Positions 727-33,232 of a stretch of 34,434 bases of DNA are shown piece after piece (position 1 is the first letter of the stretch; each line of letters begins with the position of its first letter). The notes beneath the pieces are model-generated. The model had not been told where the DNA came from. It did no database searches and saw only the letters and a list, made by a program, of their open reading frames with translations. Where the stretch lies: assembly GCA_030604405.1 (NCBI GenBank), contig JAUVVY010000041.1, positions 1 to 34,434 on the forward strand, in the 5' to 3' direction. Origin of the DNA: a bacterium. Lineage in GTDB: Bacteria; Armatimonadota; Zipacnadia; Zipacnadales; UBA11051. The position numbers were made by a program, and so were the translations under genes.

Positions 727-1941
727 TCACTGTTGTGCGAACTGCGGCAGTGAGAGAATGATATCAACCGCCTGGCTCAGGCTTTCTGCTACATAGTCGG
801 GCGGCTGTTCGCATCTCGCCACATGGTCGGCGACCTGGTCCTTAGCCTCACCCTCACCCCCGGCCCCTCTCCCACAGGGAGAGGGGGGTAAAGGCGTGTC
901 GCCGTTTTCTGTTTCCCCTCTCCCTGAGGGAGAGGGGTTAGGGGTGAGGGGCCGTTGGGCCGGAGAGGGGCTAGGGGTGAGGGCATCCACTATTCCAGCC
1001 AGCACACCAGACAGATCGTCAAGCACCTCACTGTTCGTGAATCTCAGAACTGTCAGCCCGCGGTTTTCCAACTCGTGTTGGCGTATCTGGTCGTATTCTT
1101 GAGTCGTGGCATGAACCGCGCCCTCAATCTCTACTACCAGGCCTTTTTCCTCGCAGTAGAAATCGGCAACATATCTTCCCAACGGGTGCTGCCGGCGGAA
1201 CTTAGTCCAAAGTACTCTGCGGTCGCGCAGGTATTCCCAGAGCTTTGCCTCGGCGCGGGTACTTTCAGCGCGAAGCTGGCGGCAAAGCTGTGTCATGTAT
1301 TCAGGCTTGTGCGCCTTTTCGATCGGCTTGTCTGTTGCCCAACGCTTACCCTCACCCCTAACCCCTCTCCCAGGGGGAGAGGGGGGCAAAGACATGTCGC
1401 CGTTTTCTGTTTCCCCTCTCCCCCTGGGAGAGGGGTTAGGGGTGAGGGGTATAGGCGGCAGCTCCCTGCGCGTCGTCAGGAAGATGCTGCTGCAGCCGGC
1501 TGCGTGCGCCGCGTTTATATCACTGCAACTGTCGCCCACAACTAGCGACCTCTGCAAATCAAGGCCGTACTTGGCTGCGGCTGTCAGCAGTTGCCCCGGA
1601 CGGGGCTTGCGGCAATGGCAGCCCTCGTCGGGCCGATGGGGGCAGTAGTGTATGCCGTGAATCAACCCGCCCGCCTCAGCGACCTCCAGGCGCATCCGTG
1701 TGAATGTGTCAAGCAGCGTCCGCTCCGAGAAATAGCCCCGGCCTACTCCCGACTGGTTCGATATCACATACACTTCCACCCCGTGCTCGTGCAGCCGCCT
1801 CAGGGCCGCCAGAGCATCCGCCCGGAAGCGAAACTCATCCCAGCTCTTTACGTAATCGTAGCTGTCCTCATTGATTACGCCGTCTCTATCCAGAAAGACG
1901 GCCGGCTTGCTGCGCAATCTGATACTCCTTAGTTTCACCAT
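727..1941 (-). CDS. GmhB-like HAD phosphatase interrupted in frame by a DUF559 nuclease domain
   Basis: Residues 1-163 are a HAD-IIIA phosphatase of the heptose-bisphosphate (GmhB) or histidinol-phosphate phosphatase type. Visible motifs are nucleophile/acid Asp18 and Asp20 in DRDGVIN, SNQSG at 61-65, a zinc site Cys100/His102/Cys108/Cys110 followed by the motif III Lys112, and GDSCSDI at 136-142. The last strand and helix of the fold appear only at the C-terminus, in DYVAESLSQAVDIIL. Between them, residues 165-364 come from a repeat-flanked cassette holding a DUF559 domain (about 216-318) with Asp260, Glu271, Glu273 and His277 in nuclease motif positions. All four phosphatase motifs precede the insertion, so that activity may survive. 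Normal relatives are 180-200 residues; this one is 404. TTG 1917, seven bases after AAGGAG, is an alternative start. Substrate unknown; heptose or nucleotide-sugar metabolism is a guess from the family. Confidence 0.85.
   Translation of the reverse strand: MVKLRSIRLRSKPAVFLDRDGVINEDSYDYVKSWDEFRFRADALAALRRLHEHGVEVYVISNQSGVGRGYFSERTLLDTFTRMRLEVAEAGGLIHGIHYCPHRPDEGCHCRKPRPGQLLTAAAKYGLDLQRSLVVGDSCSDINAAHAAGCSSIFLTTRRELPPIPLTPNPSPRGRGETENGDMSLPPSPPGRGVRGEGKRWATDKPIEKAHKPEYMTQLCRQLRAESTRAEAKLWEYLRDRRVLWTKFRRQHPLGRYVADFYCEEKGLVVEIEGAVHATTQEYDQIRQHELENRGLTVLRFTNSEVLDDLSGVLAGIVDALTPSPSPAQRPLTPNPSPSGRGETENGDTPLPPSPCGRGAGGEGEAKDQVADHVARCEQPPDYVAESLSQAVDIILSLPQFAQQ
851..950. repeat. 100-nt palindromic unit B
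   Basis: Two 36-nt arms (851-886 and 915-950) are inverted copies with about four mismatches and surround a 28-nt spacer (887-914). The spacer differs at only three positions from that of the unit at 1349-1448, and both lie in the same orientation. Each arm is itself a small hairpin of the CCCTCTCCC...GGGAGAGGG kind. In the minus frame it reads as PLTPNPSPSGRGE and PLPPSPCGRGAGGEG. Confidence 0.95.
962..983. repeat. Orphan half arm of the palindromic unit
   Basis: This 22-nt stretch, GGAGAGGGG-CTAGGGGTGAGGG, repeats the outer end of the right arm of the neighbouring unit with one or two changes. It has no partner arm, so it looks like the remains of a third unit at the nuclease side of the cassette. 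Confidence 0.8.
1349..1448. repeat. 100-nt palindromic unit A (perfect arms)
   Basis: Arms at 1349-1384 and 1413-1448 are perfect reverse complements over 36 nt, with a 28-nt spacer at 1385-1412. The spacer shares CGCCGTTTTCTGTTT exactly with the other unit. Perfect arms here against diverged arms in the other copy suggest this one is younger or maintained. In the minus frame it encodes PLTPNPSPRGRGE and PPSPPGRGVRGEG. Confidence 0.97.
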
Positions 1942-4412: not shown

Positions 4413-5462
4413 CTAGATCAGGCGCGCGATCGTTTGTGTCTCGTTTTCATCCTCTTCGATCGGTGGCGGCAGGGGCATGCGCGAGAGGTCCGGATAGGTG
4501 CGGATCGTGCGGCCCTCCGGCATCAGGATCTCCGCCCTCGCCAGAGCGTTCTTGACCCGTATCGGCAACTCCTCGGTAGCCAGCCAGTCCTGGGTGGGGA
4601 ATATGGCGACTGGCATGCGCACACAGGCTGAGCCGCCGGGAGCTACTTCTGCTCCGGCCGGCCCCGCCAGCGGCAAATGCCGGGGGAAATCCTCCAACAT
4701 ATCGTCAATAACGGCCTGGATCACGCCGCTGGCCTTCTCGGCGTCCTCCGCGCTGCCCATCGGCACCTCGACTATGTAGTTGACGAAGTGCTCTTCATAG
4801 ACCGTAACGATGGTGATAGTGCCGTTGGGTATGTAGTGCAACTGGTTATCGAGGTCCTTGAGCACCGTCACGCGCAGACCGATCACTTCGACCAGCCCGA
4901 ATTTGCCGCCGACCTCGATGTAGTCGCCCACCACGTACTGGCCCTCCAGCAGCAAGAAGAAGCCACTGATCGTGTCTTTCACCAGTGTCTGAGCGCCGAA
5001 GCCGACCGCGATACCGAGAATCCCTGCGCCAGCCAGGACAGTCGTGAGGGGGACATTCATTACCGACAATATCCCTAGTATAGCGCCGATGCCGATAACC
5101 CATTTGGCGACATTGGCCAACAGCCCAAGCACCGTCACTGCACGCCGGGCCTGCTGCCGCACACGAGCACGCGCCGTCATGGCTTCGGCTTCAAGACGCA
5201 ACACAGCGCGGCGGATTATCAGCATGACTATCCAGTAAACGAAGACCGACAGCAGGAGGATGAACACTATGAGACTCAGCTTCTCATAACTCGATCCCGC
5301 ATCGCTGACGTCGTCGAGGATCTCAAACACAACCCACCTCGCCCTTTCTACTGCTTCGGGCGCTTCCTCGGCGTCCGGCACATCCTCCTGGCAATATCCG
5401 ACAGCCAAAGGTATCAGCACTAGAACAGCGAACCATGCAATGCGCGCCTTGATACTGTTCAT
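4413..5462 (-). CDS. MscS-family small-conductance mechanosensitive channel
   Basis: About 349 residues. The N-terminus (MNSIKARIAWFAVLVLIPLA) is a signal peptide or first membrane helix. A short acidic stretch follows, then a helix (LSLIVFILLLSVFVYWIV), an Arg-rich connector, and the MscS core. The pore-lining helix is the Gly/Ala-rich TTVLAGAGILGIAVGFGAQ, followed by the beta domain with EGQYVVGDYIEVGG and IPNGTI. Such channels open under membrane tension to release solutes during osmotic downshock. The ATG at 5462 is chosen because GGAGGG lies just upstream; the in-frame ATG at 5480 is before that site. The tail ends acidic. It is a lone gene facing the PfkB gene. Confidence 0.92.
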   Translation of the reverse strand: MNSIKARIAWFAVLVLIPLAVGYCQEDVPDAEEAPEAVERARWVVFEILDDVSDAGSSYEKLSLIVFILLLSVFVYWIVMLIIRRAVLRLEAEAMTARARVRQQARRAVTVLGLLANVAKWVIGIGAILGILSVMNVPLTTVLAGAGILGIAVGFGAQTLVKDTISGFFLLLEGQYVVGDYIEVGGKFGLVEVIGLRVTVLKDLDNQLHYIPNGTITIVTVYEEHFVNYIVEVPMGSAEDAEKASGVIQAVIDDMLEDFPRHLPLAGPAGAEVAPGGSACVRMPVAIFPTQDWLATEELPIRVKNALARAEILMPEGRTIRTYPDLSRMPLPPPIEEDENETQTIARLI

Positions 5463-5583
5463 CCATGCACCCTCCAACACTTACGCGGCTAGTTGCACTA
5501 CACTTGCTCTACAGCGGCAATTCTTCAAAGGGCTACTCGAGCCCGACGTCGTCAGTTCACGAATAATAGATTCCATCTGTTCT

Positions 5584-8945: not shown

Positions 8946-8961
8946 GATTTTTTTCCTTGTT

Positions 8962-9050
8962 GGAAATTGGGGACAGTCACCTATTTCTTGTCATTTCTCT
9001 AAGTCGCACTCCTACTCCTCTGCACAAATAGGTGACTGTCCCCAATTTCC
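8962..9050. repeat. 89-bp inverted-repeat element, copy 1
   Basis: Perfect 25-nt inverted arms at 8962-8986 and 9026-9050 (GGAAATTGGGGACAGTCACC...) enclose a 39-nt centre. The same element occurs in opposite orientation at 16660-16749, and its centre (AGAGGAGTAGGAG ... CTTAGAGAAAT) is shared too. A lone arm lies at 31218-31241. This copy fills the divergent spacer between the F-type secretion gene and the nitroreductase gene. The arms resemble REP-like sequences mobilised by Y1/RAYT transposases; that is recollection, not shown here. Confidence 0.93.
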
Positions 9051-16591: not shown

Positions 16592-16659
16592 GACAGTACC
16601 CCCAAACTAGGGTTTCATACTGTGTGTCCTGTTCGCCGTGTTGTGCCGATTACCTTTGT

Positions 16660-16749
16660 GGAAATTGGGGACAGTCACCTATTTCTGTAGAGGAGTAGGA
16701 GGGGAACTTAGAGAAATTGCAGGAAATGGGTGACTGTCCCCGAATTTCC
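16660..16749. repeat. Inverted-repeat element, copy 2
   Basis: Left arm 16660-16684 is identical to the arm of the element at 8962. The right arm 16724-16749 has one substitution and one inserted G. The 39-nt centre matches the reverse complement of the first copy's centre across most of its length, including AGAGGAGTAGGAG. It fills the divergent gap between the aminotransferase and oxidoreductase genes and ends 25 bases before the latter's start codon. Confidence 0.92.
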
Positions 16750-17804: not shown

Positions 17805-18779
17805 ATGGCGTCCCAGAATTGCAGCAATCCAGAGAGCATCACAATGCGGCCGCATCATCTGATGTGCTTGTTGTGCCTCAAGGGAGGGGGAAATCCGCCG
17901 GACCGCGAGAGCGCGAAGCTGGACGAGAAGCTGAAGGCCATCGAAGATGACCGCAATATCCTCATCACGCTGGAGACCGCTTTTGACTGCATGGGCGGGC
18001 CGAAGACCTTCCCGACGGAGTACGACCCGGCCACGCGGCGCAAAGACTTGCAGGTGCTGCGGGCGCTGAACATGGTGCCCGGCGCCACCCGCAATGCCAG
18101 GGAGCTGTTCCACAGACGCATTCCACAGAATATCGCGAGCCTGGAGGGCATCTGTCAGCTTGGCGGCGAGAGCGGGCCGGCGTGGCAGGAATGTCCGCAA
18201 GCTCACAGCGGAGCATACGAGAAGGGGCTCGAGGCAGGCATCATCATCTTCCGCGATCCGGTTCAGAAGGAGCAGTCCAAGGTGGACTCGTGTGATGAGC
18301 TAATGACCACCGACCGGCTGCGCGTCCGGCCGCATCATCTGCTGTGCATCCTGTGCGCGTATGGCGGCGGCATGAGAGCGCCACTGGTCGAGGATAACCT
18401 GTGGGAGATACTCGTACGAAGCCGGGAGGAGCCGGACGTCGAGATTGAGCTCATCGAGGGTGCCTGCATGGTCTGTCCGCCGTGCCACGGCTATGATCCG
18501 GACAGGGAAATCTGCGACGCGGGCTGCGGCCTGCGGGATCGGCTCAAAGACCTCAACACCTTCCAGAAGCTCGGACTGCAGCACGGCGATGTGCTGCCGG
18601 CCAGGGAGCTTTGGGCTCTGTTGTTTGAAAAGCTCGAAAAGCTCAGCGACATCTGCGACAATCCCGACGGCGTCATCCCGGAATGGAGCACCTGCGGCAG
18701 CGCGCACAGCGGCAAGTACGAAAAGCTGCGCGAAGAGGGCGTGGAGAAGCTGCTGAATCCGGGCCCAGAGGACGAATAA
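17805..18779 (+). CDS. Tandem DUF1284-like Cys/His-rich protein A
   Basis: About 324 residues in two related halves. Each half starts with the family signature: MRPHHLMCLLCLKGGG near residue 15 and VRPHHLLCILCAYGGG near 177. The second half also has EGACMVCPPCHGYDP and ICDAGCGLRDRLKDLN, the Cys cluster and closing helix typical of DUF1284. The first half has instead AFDCMGGPKTFP and a GICQLGGESGPAW block. The HHLxC plus later Cys residues suggest a bound metal or cluster; function is unknown. AGGAG at 17791-17795 abuts ATG 17796, so ATG 17805, nine bases away, is the likelier start. It is 28 bases after the oxidoreductase and 26 before its paralogue. Confidence 0.75.
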   Translation: MASQNCSNPESITMRPHHLMCLLCLKGGGNPPDRESAKLDEKLKAIEDDRNILITLETAFDCMGGPKTFPTEYDPATRRKDLQVLRALNMVPGATRNARELFHRRIPQNIASLEGICQLGGESGPAWQECPQAHSGAYEKGLEAGIIIFRDPVQKEQSKVDSCDELMTTDRLRVRPHHLLCILCAYGGGMRAPLVEDNLWEILVRSREEPDVEIELIEGACMVCPPCHGYDPDREICDAGCGLRDRLKDLNTFQKLGLQHGDVLPARELWALLFEKLEKLSDICDNPDGVIPEWSTCGSAHSGKYEKLREEGVEKLLNPGPEDE

Positions 18780-18805: not shown

Positions 18806-19756
18806 GTGGCAAACGAGGAACTGTGCAACAAGCAGCCCATTGGAGTGCGGCCGCACCACCTGATGTGTCTGCATTGCCTCAAGGGTGGTGGCGACCCGCC
18901 GGACCGCGAAGAAGCGAACCTCGACGGATTGCTTGCGGAGATCGAAGAGGACCGCAACACGTTGCTTACGCTTCAGACGGCGTTTGACTGCATGGGCGGG
19001 CCGACAACGTTCCCGACCAAGTATGATCCGGCGACGCGGCGCAAGGACCTGCAGGCACTGCGGGCGCTCAACCTGGTCCCCGATGAGACGCGCTGCGCCC
19101 TCTGGATGCTCGGCACGTGGCTTCCGCAGAATATCCCGACAATCGAGGGCATCTGTGAGCTCGGCGGCGAGAGCGGCCCGGCCTGGAAGGAATGCCCGGT
19201 GGCCTACACGGGCGCGTATGAGAAGGGCCTCGAGGCCGGTATCGTGCCCGACCGCCCCAAGGACGAGATGGCCCGGGCTAAGCAGGAATCAGTTGAGGAG
19301 ATGGAAAGAGCCGGACGTCTCCGCATCCGCGCCCACCATCTGCTCTGCATGATGTGCTTCTGGGGCCGCCACCATGACCAGCCGCTGGAGGTGGACAATC
19401 TCTACGAGGCCGTCGAAGCTATCCGCGAGAACCCGGATATCGAAATCGAGCTGATCGAGGGTGCGTGCATGATCTGTCCGCCGTGCACCGGATACGACCC
19501 CCAGCGCGGCATTTGCGACGCCGGGTGCGCGCTCCGCGACCGCCTCAAGGACCTCAATACGTTCTACCTGCTGGGCCTCAAGCCCGGCGATGTCATCACC
19601 GGCCACGACGTCTATGAACTCATCTGGGAACGCATCCCGGACATTAAGATGGTCTGCGAGAACCCGGGTAACCTCATCTCTGAATGGGCCAATTGCGGCG
19701 GTGTCAGCGACGGCCGCTACGAAAGCGCCCGCGAGCGCGGGAAGTTCCACGAGTAG
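18806..19756 (+). CDS. Tandem DUF1284-like Cys/His-rich protein B
   Basis: A 316-residue paralogue of the preceding protein, colinear throughout. The first signature is VRPHHLMCLHCLKGGG, then AFDCMGGPTTFPTKYDP and ICELGGESGPAWKECP. The second signature is IRAHHLLCMMCFWG, followed by EGACMICPPCTGYDP and ICDAGCALRDRLKDLN. One change is notable: Arg-Pro-His-His has become Arg-Ala-His-His in the second half. The start is GTG 18806, with GGGAAGGGG about eight bases upstream. The pair most likely arose by gene duplication after an earlier internal duplication. No transmembrane or signal segment is seen. Confidence 0.75.
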   Translation: MANEELCNKQPIGVRPHHLMCLHCLKGGGDPPDREEANLDGLLAEIEEDRNTLLTLQTAFDCMGGPTTFPTKYDPATRRKDLQALRALNLVPDETRCALWMLGTWLPQNIPTIEGICELGGESGPAWKECPVAYTGAYEKGLEAGIVPDRPKDEMARAKQESVEEMERAGRLRIRAHHLLCMMCFWGRHHDQPLEVDNLYEAVEAIRENPDIEIELIEGACMICPPCTGYDPQRGICDAGCALRDRLKDLNTFYLLGLKPGDVITGHDVYELIWERIPDIKMVCENPGNLISEWANCGGVSDGRYESARERGKFHE

Positions 19757-31202: not shown

Positions 31203-31217
31203 ATTGCGTTTTCCTCT

Positions 31218-31241
31218 GAAATTGGGGACAGTCACCTATTT
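31218..31241. repeat. Solo arm of the 89-bp inverted-repeat element
   Basis: Twenty-four bases, GAAATTGGGGACAGTCACC plus TATTT, are identical to the left arm of the elements at 8962 and 16660. No second arm or central part is present. It fills most of the 42-base dnaK-dnaJ spacer, ending three bases from the dnaK stop codon. Both genes remain intact around it. Confidence 0.93.
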
Positions 31242-31244
31242 CTA

Positions 31245-33174: not shown

Positions 33175-33232
33175 CCTAACCCCCTTTGATTCCCCCTTCC
33201 CTGCAGGGAAGGGGGAATCAAAGGGGGTTAGG
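33175..33232. repeat. 58-nt perfect palindrome in the dnaK leader
   Basis: Bases 33175-33203 and 33204-33232 are perfect reverse complements centred on CTGCAG. Each half contains CCCCCTTTGATTCCCCC or its complement. In the dnaK transcript it would be a hairpin of nearly 29 base pairs, 40-100 bases before the start codon. There is no T-run after it, so it is not a standard terminator. Similar CCCCCTTTGATTCCCCC palindromes are, from memory, dispersed in many bacterial genomes. Confidence 0.97.

Follow-up and report, generated by a model that had tools for sequence, protein, structure and literature searches.

A DUF559 nuclease cassette within a HAD phosphatase gene and the association of DUF559 genes with BoxC/TM repeats in bacteria

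An interrupted phosphatase gene and its repeats

The locus considered here lies in a window of 34,434 nucleotides (the whole stretch of DNA that was analysed) and consists of a HAD-type phosphatase gene whose reading frame takes in a small nuclease domain and, on either side of it, a copy of a palindromic repeat. The features on which the argument relies are the following:

727-1941, minus strand: open reading frame of 404 codons, a HAD phosphatase with an in-frame DUF559 cassette (ORF reading, Pfam/NCBIfam matches, AlphaFold2 model)
1450-1941, minus strand: HAD phosphatase core, residues 1-164 (family matches; homologues 91-47% identical, from the same genus to the same order)
1345-1449, unstranded: TM/BoxC doublet 2, two inverted hairpins, both with type A (TAA) loops, and a 28-nt spacer; encodes disordered linker 1
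979-1302, minus strand: predicted DUF559 Vsr-like PD-(D/E)XK domain, residues 214-321 (PF04480 match, alignments, structure)
962-983, unstranded: lone TM arm, half of a unit, with 95% identity to the other arms
847-951, unstranded: TM/BoxC doublet 1, a type B (CGG) and a type A (TAA) hairpin with a 28-nt spacer; encodes disordered linker 2
727-855, minus strand: HAD C-terminal helices after the interruption, about residues 363-404 (alignment with the 11 uninterrupted homologues; model)
33175-33232, unstranded: perfect palindrome of 2 x 29 nt, a copy of the genome's second TM family, which brackets the DUF559 gene of contig C44

On ORF reading the frame runs without interruption through all 404 codons, in agreement with the original prediction of a single surviving frame. 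Residues 11-157 match the histidinol-phosphatase/GmhB domain of NCBIfam (TIGR01656, E 1.8e-42), and the host part is a GmhB/HisB-type HAD phosphatase with the cassette in its linker. In the AlphaFold2 model of the frame (mean pLDDT 79.9) the HAD core, the nuclease (207-321) and the HAD C-terminal helices are folded with good confidence, and the repeat-encoded stretches, 172-206 and 329-361, are disordered. Eleven HAD homologues, 83-47% identical over the core, align continuously across this place with no nuclease and no TM at the insertion site; one of them, in genome G002, reads TTRRELPRHQGFPEGDAQVTDH where the window reads TTRRELPP, the cassette and then EAKDQVADH. Judged by this comparison the cassette is a real insertion, and both the eleven homologues, of the kind that the prediction had proposed to look for in relatives, and the model bear out a phosphatase that is split and then resumes. 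The span originally given, 851-1448, took in both repeat units and the nuclease and left out the host gene. The family search had offered a further homologue, in genome G001 (91% identical), as insert-free; it was rejected as such, since its contig terminates within the cassette and the repeat is present. In G003, of the same genus, the phosphatase gene has a decayed DUF559, without the second acidic motif, in frame at the corresponding position (about 4542-5501 of locus L113, contig G003:C210). Given the repeat in G001 and the decayed copy in G003, the insertion would either predate some of the genus splits or have occurred more than once. Among the Pfam and NCBIfam families matched by the window frame there is no Hint or intein model.

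The two direct palindromic units of about 100 nt that had been described around the nuclease are indeed there, at 847-951 and 1345-1449; they are 105 nt each and 89% identical, and each consists of two 36-nt arms in inverted orientation (89% and 100% complementary). Both are open in the phosphatase frame, as described, and encode linkers; they are not a new repeat. Read on the other strand, the arms at 851-886 and 1349-1384 match types B and A of TM_ECO (PMC4666352, Table 1): the window has CCCCTCTCCCTGTGGGAGAGGGGCCGGGGGTGAGGG and its TAA variant, and the E. coli K-12 forms in the table are CCCTCTCCCTGTGGGAGAGGGCCGGGGTGAGGGC for type B and, for type A, one with TTA. By their sequence, the units are thus the known BoxC/PIT/TM intrastrand triplex motif, nearly identical to the TM copies of K-12. 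They share with it the hairpin CCCTCTCCC-loop-GGGAGAGGG, the third strand GGGTGAGGG, a second loop of 3 nt of type A (TTA) or B (CCG), and occurrence both as singles and as inverted A+B pairs. Inverted pairs in PMC4666352 always join A with B, whereas in the window unit 1 is a B+A pair and unit 2 is A+A; the K-12 copies of that survey are only intergenic, whereas those of the window stand on either side of a nuclease gene and are read as protein within a host gene. Knowledge of BoxC/TM repeats goes back to the 1990s and extends to more than 260 genomes, and triplex formation in vitro was shown for TM_ECO (PMC4666352); the present analysis reads the mirror grammar alone. That mapping survey reports no mobility gene near TM sites.

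Between the units lies a protein domain that matches PF04480 at residues 216-321 with an E value of 1.8e-33 (115.1 bits against a Pfam cut-off of 20.6). Alignment places E231, D260, E271, E273 and H277 at conserved positions of the family, so that the residues originally proposed as catalytic, D260, E271 and E273, fall on its conserved D, E and D columns; the column of residue 273 is D in more than 90% of relatives and E in the window. Invariant across 58 DUF559 sequences are R11, E18, W22, R37, Q38, D47, F48, E58, G61, H64, D71 and R74. The closest folds to the DUF559 model (pLDDT 88) are NGO0050 of Neisseria (3hrl, Z 16.0), I-Bth0305I (3r3p, 11.8) and Vsr (1cw0, 9.1). Sequence and model agree that the window DUF559 is a predicted Vsr-like PD-(D/E)XK nuclease, sharing its family or fold with Vsr, YcjD, NGO0050 and Caulobacter VsrA. 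By 2005 YcjD was already assigned to the PD-(D/E)XK superfamily, in the neighbourhood of Vsr (PMC1189080). A member of the family probably breaks DNA in vivo, because VsrA, the Caulobacter DUF559 protein, drives the SOS response in cells without ScmA (PMC12907096).

Association of DUF559 genes with dispersed repeats

The genome from which the window derives has two DUF559 genes, and both (2/2, which answers the question raised at the outset of whether such genes are flanked genome-wide) are bracketed by repeats of this kind, each by a different family; the second gene, on contig C44, lies between copies of the palindrome CCTATCCCCCTTTGATTCCCCCTTCCCTGCAGGGAAGGGGGCTAGGGGGTTAGG. Pattern searches across the genome returned 55 matches to the first arm when up to 2 mismatches were allowed and 41 to the second-family repeat with up to 3, so that each family has roughly 40-55 dispersed copies. 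A reversed pattern is a poor control for the count of 55, the motif being nearly mirror-symmetric; a clean control was used for the TM counts in relatives. Units that stand apart from any DUF559 gene, for which a search had also been suggested, exist as well: lone repeats lie in frame inside MtaB-like and PFL-like genes (names from sequence reading only). The second-family palindrome of the window, 33175-33232, is placed just upstream of the apparent start of a dnaK-type gene on the minus strand.

Other repeated sequence also occurs in the window. A different palindromic family, AAATTGGGGACAGTCACCTATTT and its inverse, is found at 8952-9050, 16650-16746 and 31207-31243, twice as doublets, and its GGGGACAG core fits the GGGGWSAS motif of TIRYT-type RAYT repeats (PMC3733652). 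There is, moreover, a diverged tandem duplication of about 1 kb with a spacing of 1001, which pairs 17845-18144 with 18846-19145 and 18380-18592 with 19381-19593 (73% and 71% identity).

Two sets of loci extend the association beyond this genome. The first comprises 52 loci from relatives (61 genomes, DUF559 being found in 29) and the second 80 loci in named genomes of many phyla, selected by the FRRQH motif; one locus, which G033, of the window's order, has in common with a Candidatus Zipacnadia MAG, is counted in both, and this identity makes Armatimonadota the probable phylum of the window. When the left and right 500-bp flanks were compared, with a shared repeat called at a score of at least 20 and control positions taken in the same loci, a shared repeat was present at 38/50 DUF559 loci of the relatives against 2.5% of 976 control positions, and at 52/76 named loci against 1.2% of 847. 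C-rich hairpins are about twentyfold denser near DUF559 (2.24 and 2.57 per kb) than more than 1 kb away (0.09 and 0.14), and they stand on both sides of the gene at 26/50 loci of the relatives (0/957 control positions) and at 53/73 named loci (0.25% of 791); in about 27% of the named loci the hairpins of one side were undetected. The two-sided cases come from 13 named phyla and Armatimonadota, that is, at least 14 phyla. DUF559 is also present in 11/14 genomes with at least 5 TM matches versus 18/47 of the others (Fisher p 0.009). The association that had been predicted for this genome therefore holds across phyla; the outcome named as telling against it, a lack of association between DUF559 genes and the unit, was not observed, and the remark that DUF559 is usually a stand-alone gene needs amending, given that the gene is not normally free of repeats. 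DUF559 was also considered as the enzyme of CGTC-type REPs, which are without a known transposase (PMC3733652), and the idea is unsupported, the alphaproteobacterial loci with readable repeats showing heads of the TM type.

The same pairing can be recognised in E. coli K-12, which has a DUF559 protein in YcjD. The gene, ycjD, occupies 1,351,407-1,351,760; the TM numbered 9 by Holder et al. is at 1,351,204-1,351,239, a distance of 167 bp from the 3' end of the gene, and the end itself is overlapped by another TM copy, which is broken. Both are on the 3' side, where alone K-12 ycjD has TMs. By our own arithmetic, with 23 copies in 4.64 Mb, a given gene would have a TM within such a distance with a chance of roughly 0.4%. 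The ycjD-side element is dispersed, with a median of 19 places per E. coli genome, and in 3,362/5,426 genomes one place covers at least 80% of the ycjD region. TM repeats persist in strains in which the ycjD locus has been replaced; such strains do not offer a clean empty site, the one examined having TetR/RND genes there. At the start region of K-12 ycjD (about 2762-2815 of locus L114) there is also a long palindrome, CACCTCATTCTGACAAGATTTAATCTTTTGTCAGAATGAGGTG, which is not of the TM type.

The repeats follow a grammar in which head and stem correspond. In 144/183 repeats, a set picked for good mirroring, the head ends 3 nt before the stem, and within the well-mirrored set a stem C goes with a head C and a stem T with a head T or A; on the G-rich strand a stem G thus has a head G, and a stem A has A or T in the head, which are the triads of a purine-motif triplex, the class named for TM_ECO. 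In the unpicked set of 118 loci, heads fit their own stem (0.812) better than the stems of other loci (0.708) or than shuffled heads do (0.569), with a p of 9e-12 that serves as a guide only because related loci are not independent. Vsr is an enzyme of T:G mismatches. A single stem mismatch (T.C or G.A, near the seventh position counted from the base) recurs in L157, L170, L186 and the K-12 type 'mm', and it may matter for recognition, given that Vsr relatives act on mismatches. The variant of the repeat, moreover, follows the variant of the nuclease: flank similarity climbs with nuclease identity from 12.5 below 35% to 21.3 at 60-70%, and flank and protein similarity are correlated (Mantel 0.31, 0/300 permutations). 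This correlation may derive in part from genome kinship; DUF559 pairs of the same genome have flanks slightly more alike than other pairs of equal identity. Within one genome, DUF559 paralogues are at most 77% identical; the gene, then, is not multiplied in the manner of the repeats.

Two alternatives can be weighed against these observations. The repeats could be fragile sites spread by another agent, between which DUF559 genes were merely captured, a view in keeping with the rearrangement-prone character of TM loci in E. coli (PMC4666352) and with the persistence of repeats in genomes without a detected DUF559, such as G026 and G038, where the gene was looked for and not found. Capture of this passive sort should not discriminate between small nucleases, but the HNH genes of the same relatives have C-rich hairpins on both sides in 0/21 cases; nor does it account for a repeat variant that tracks the nuclease variant across genomes, or for divergent nucleases of one genome that have different repeats, and we consider it quite improbable. 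Alternatively, DUF559 could be a repair or restriction nuclease in whose chemistry the repeats, as terminators or regulatory elements, have no part, as might be thought from the mismatch or very-short-patch repair role proposed for VsrA (PMC12907096), the protein that triggers the SOS response noted above. The bare flanks of the HNH genes argue against this too, as do the dispersal of TM copies, also into open reading frames, and earlier work that found no promoter or terminator activity of BoxC/TM elements (as cited in PMC4666352); we regard it as the least probable of the explanations considered, after homing and passive capture.

In-frame insertion in other genes

The phosphatase is not an isolated host. 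Stop-to-stop frames of at least 230 aa run through DUF559 at 39/132 loci, and at 15/57 named loci the DUF559 frame is open for at least 590 bp on both sides. By their Pfam domains, from which all host names derive, the interrupted genes encode an HrpA-type helicase, UvrC, MetH, LeuS, MetG, PriA, HsdM, HsdS and HisF, together with MmeI, Eco57I-type and Mod methylases. For MetH, UvrC and MmeI, a single Pfam domain is matched in two separate parts, as though an insert had divided it. The hosts include genes of the isolates Methylococcus capsulatus Texas, Microcystis wesenbergii and Spirulina sp. CS-785/01. These recurrences inside many essential genes lend support, at the level of sequence, to the predicted tolerance of in-frame insertion without splicing. 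The C-rich units are free of stops in the frames used and encode disordered linkers rich in Pro, Ser and Gly, so that insertions into surface loops would be kept and translated unspliced. At three loci (L093, L150 and L152) DUF559 was seen in intein-like frames of CcrM/Mod-type methylases, with an intein C-terminal splicing region matched at L093 (intein_Cterm, E 2.2e-5) and L150 (0.0054).

It is here that homing has to be considered, whereby DUF559 would cut an unoccupied allele, in the host gene or at a TM standing alone, and recombination would then copy in the cassette, the TMs acting as landing sites or flanking homology rather than being products. The second-best structural match to the nuclease, I-Bth0305I (Z 11.8), is a homing endonuclease, the intein-like frames at L093 and L150 point the same way, and in each of HrpA, UvrC, MetG and the Eco57I-type genes of cyanobacteria the insertion recurs at a single site, with nucleases that are most closely related. 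These nucleases, however, are mutual nearest neighbours, so that same-site insertion is explained just as well by simple inheritance; HsdM, conversely, is interrupted at a similar position in members of two phyla by DUF559s that are not nearest neighbours. Some 50 TM sites should moreover have multiplied the cassette, but paralogues are few and diverged, and the eleven uninterrupted phosphatases carry no TM on which an incoming cassette could have landed. Neither a target-site duplication nor a strain pair with a fresh insertion was found among the loci examined. Homing is, on balance, an unlikely account. Of the homing-like element first proposed, the translatable palindromes and the tolerated insertions stand, and in place of homing itself the evidence, multicopy repeats with a low-copy nuclease, leans toward an arrangement like that of RAYT and REPIN.

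DUF559 as a candidate enzyme of BoxC/TM repeats

The reading that we consider probable is that the window holds a TM-DUF559-TM cassette in a HAD linker, and that DUF559 is the dedicated nuclease of BoxC/TM repeats, playing with an unrelated enzyme the part that RAYTs play for REPs. It is favoured because the repeats are multicopy, the nuclease is low-copy with diverged paralogues, and lone repeats too are found in frame; that the nuclease acts on the repeat we infer from the association, the cognate variation and the copy-number pattern. The nuclease would recognise the hairpin or triplex form of its own repeat, in a strand that is single or extruded, and might cut within or next to it, and the ensuing repair could copy repeats, and occasionally a whole cassette, to new places. 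DUF559 is thus the first good candidate for the enzyme that spreads BoxC/TM repeats. More tentatively, and with our doubts slightly outweighing our belief, DUF559 and BoxC/TM may represent a second pan-bacterial class of enzyme-driven palindromes, in which the enzyme recognises structure and the repeats are shaped as readable linkers with no need of splicing.

The BoxC/TM repeat itself is already known, and what is likely to be new is its link with DUF559. No connection between DUF559 and a dispersed repeat appears in the titles, abstracts or passages of open papers that name DUF559 or ycjD, and neither name occurs in the TM survey (PMC4666352); because the search covered the open literature, novelty is likely rather than proven. 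As DUF559 also lies beside BoxC/TM at ycjD of K-12, the origin of the repeats becomes testable in the best-studied bacterium. That nuclease-bearing insertions can persist in frame in essential enzymes bears, in turn, on gene annotation and on the gain of protein domains.

Among known systems, the Rickettsia palindromic elements (PMC2229807) likewise interrupt conserved proteins in frame, as palindromes of about 100-146 bp, and in the one case tested, gmk, the element was translated and tolerated (reviewed in PMC2229807); the window agrees with them in having a palindrome in frame in a conserved gene of which 11 homologues lack it. Those elements, however, are described as small and enzyme-free and are reported in Rickettsia, whereas the insertions described here include a nuclease and occur in many phyla. 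The EDxHD homing endonucleases, represented by I-Bth0305I, have a related catalytic fold (3r3p, Z 11.8) and genes that invade host genes, but the window cassette has no separate DNA-binding region, intron or splicing domain and bears TM repeats at its ends. The closest likeness is to REP/REPIN sequences and their RAYTs (REPtrons; PMC3733652), which are also dispersed palindromes with an unpaired head, occurring as singles and inverted doublets, and in which, as found here, a low-copy enzyme gene is flanked by its own dispersed type of repeat. The two systems differ in the head, which is GTAG or CGTC in REPs and CCCTCAYCCC here (in the window CCCTCACCCC), and in the enzyme, which is an HUH tyrosine transposase in the one and the Vsr-like PD-(D/E)XK protein DUF559 in the other.
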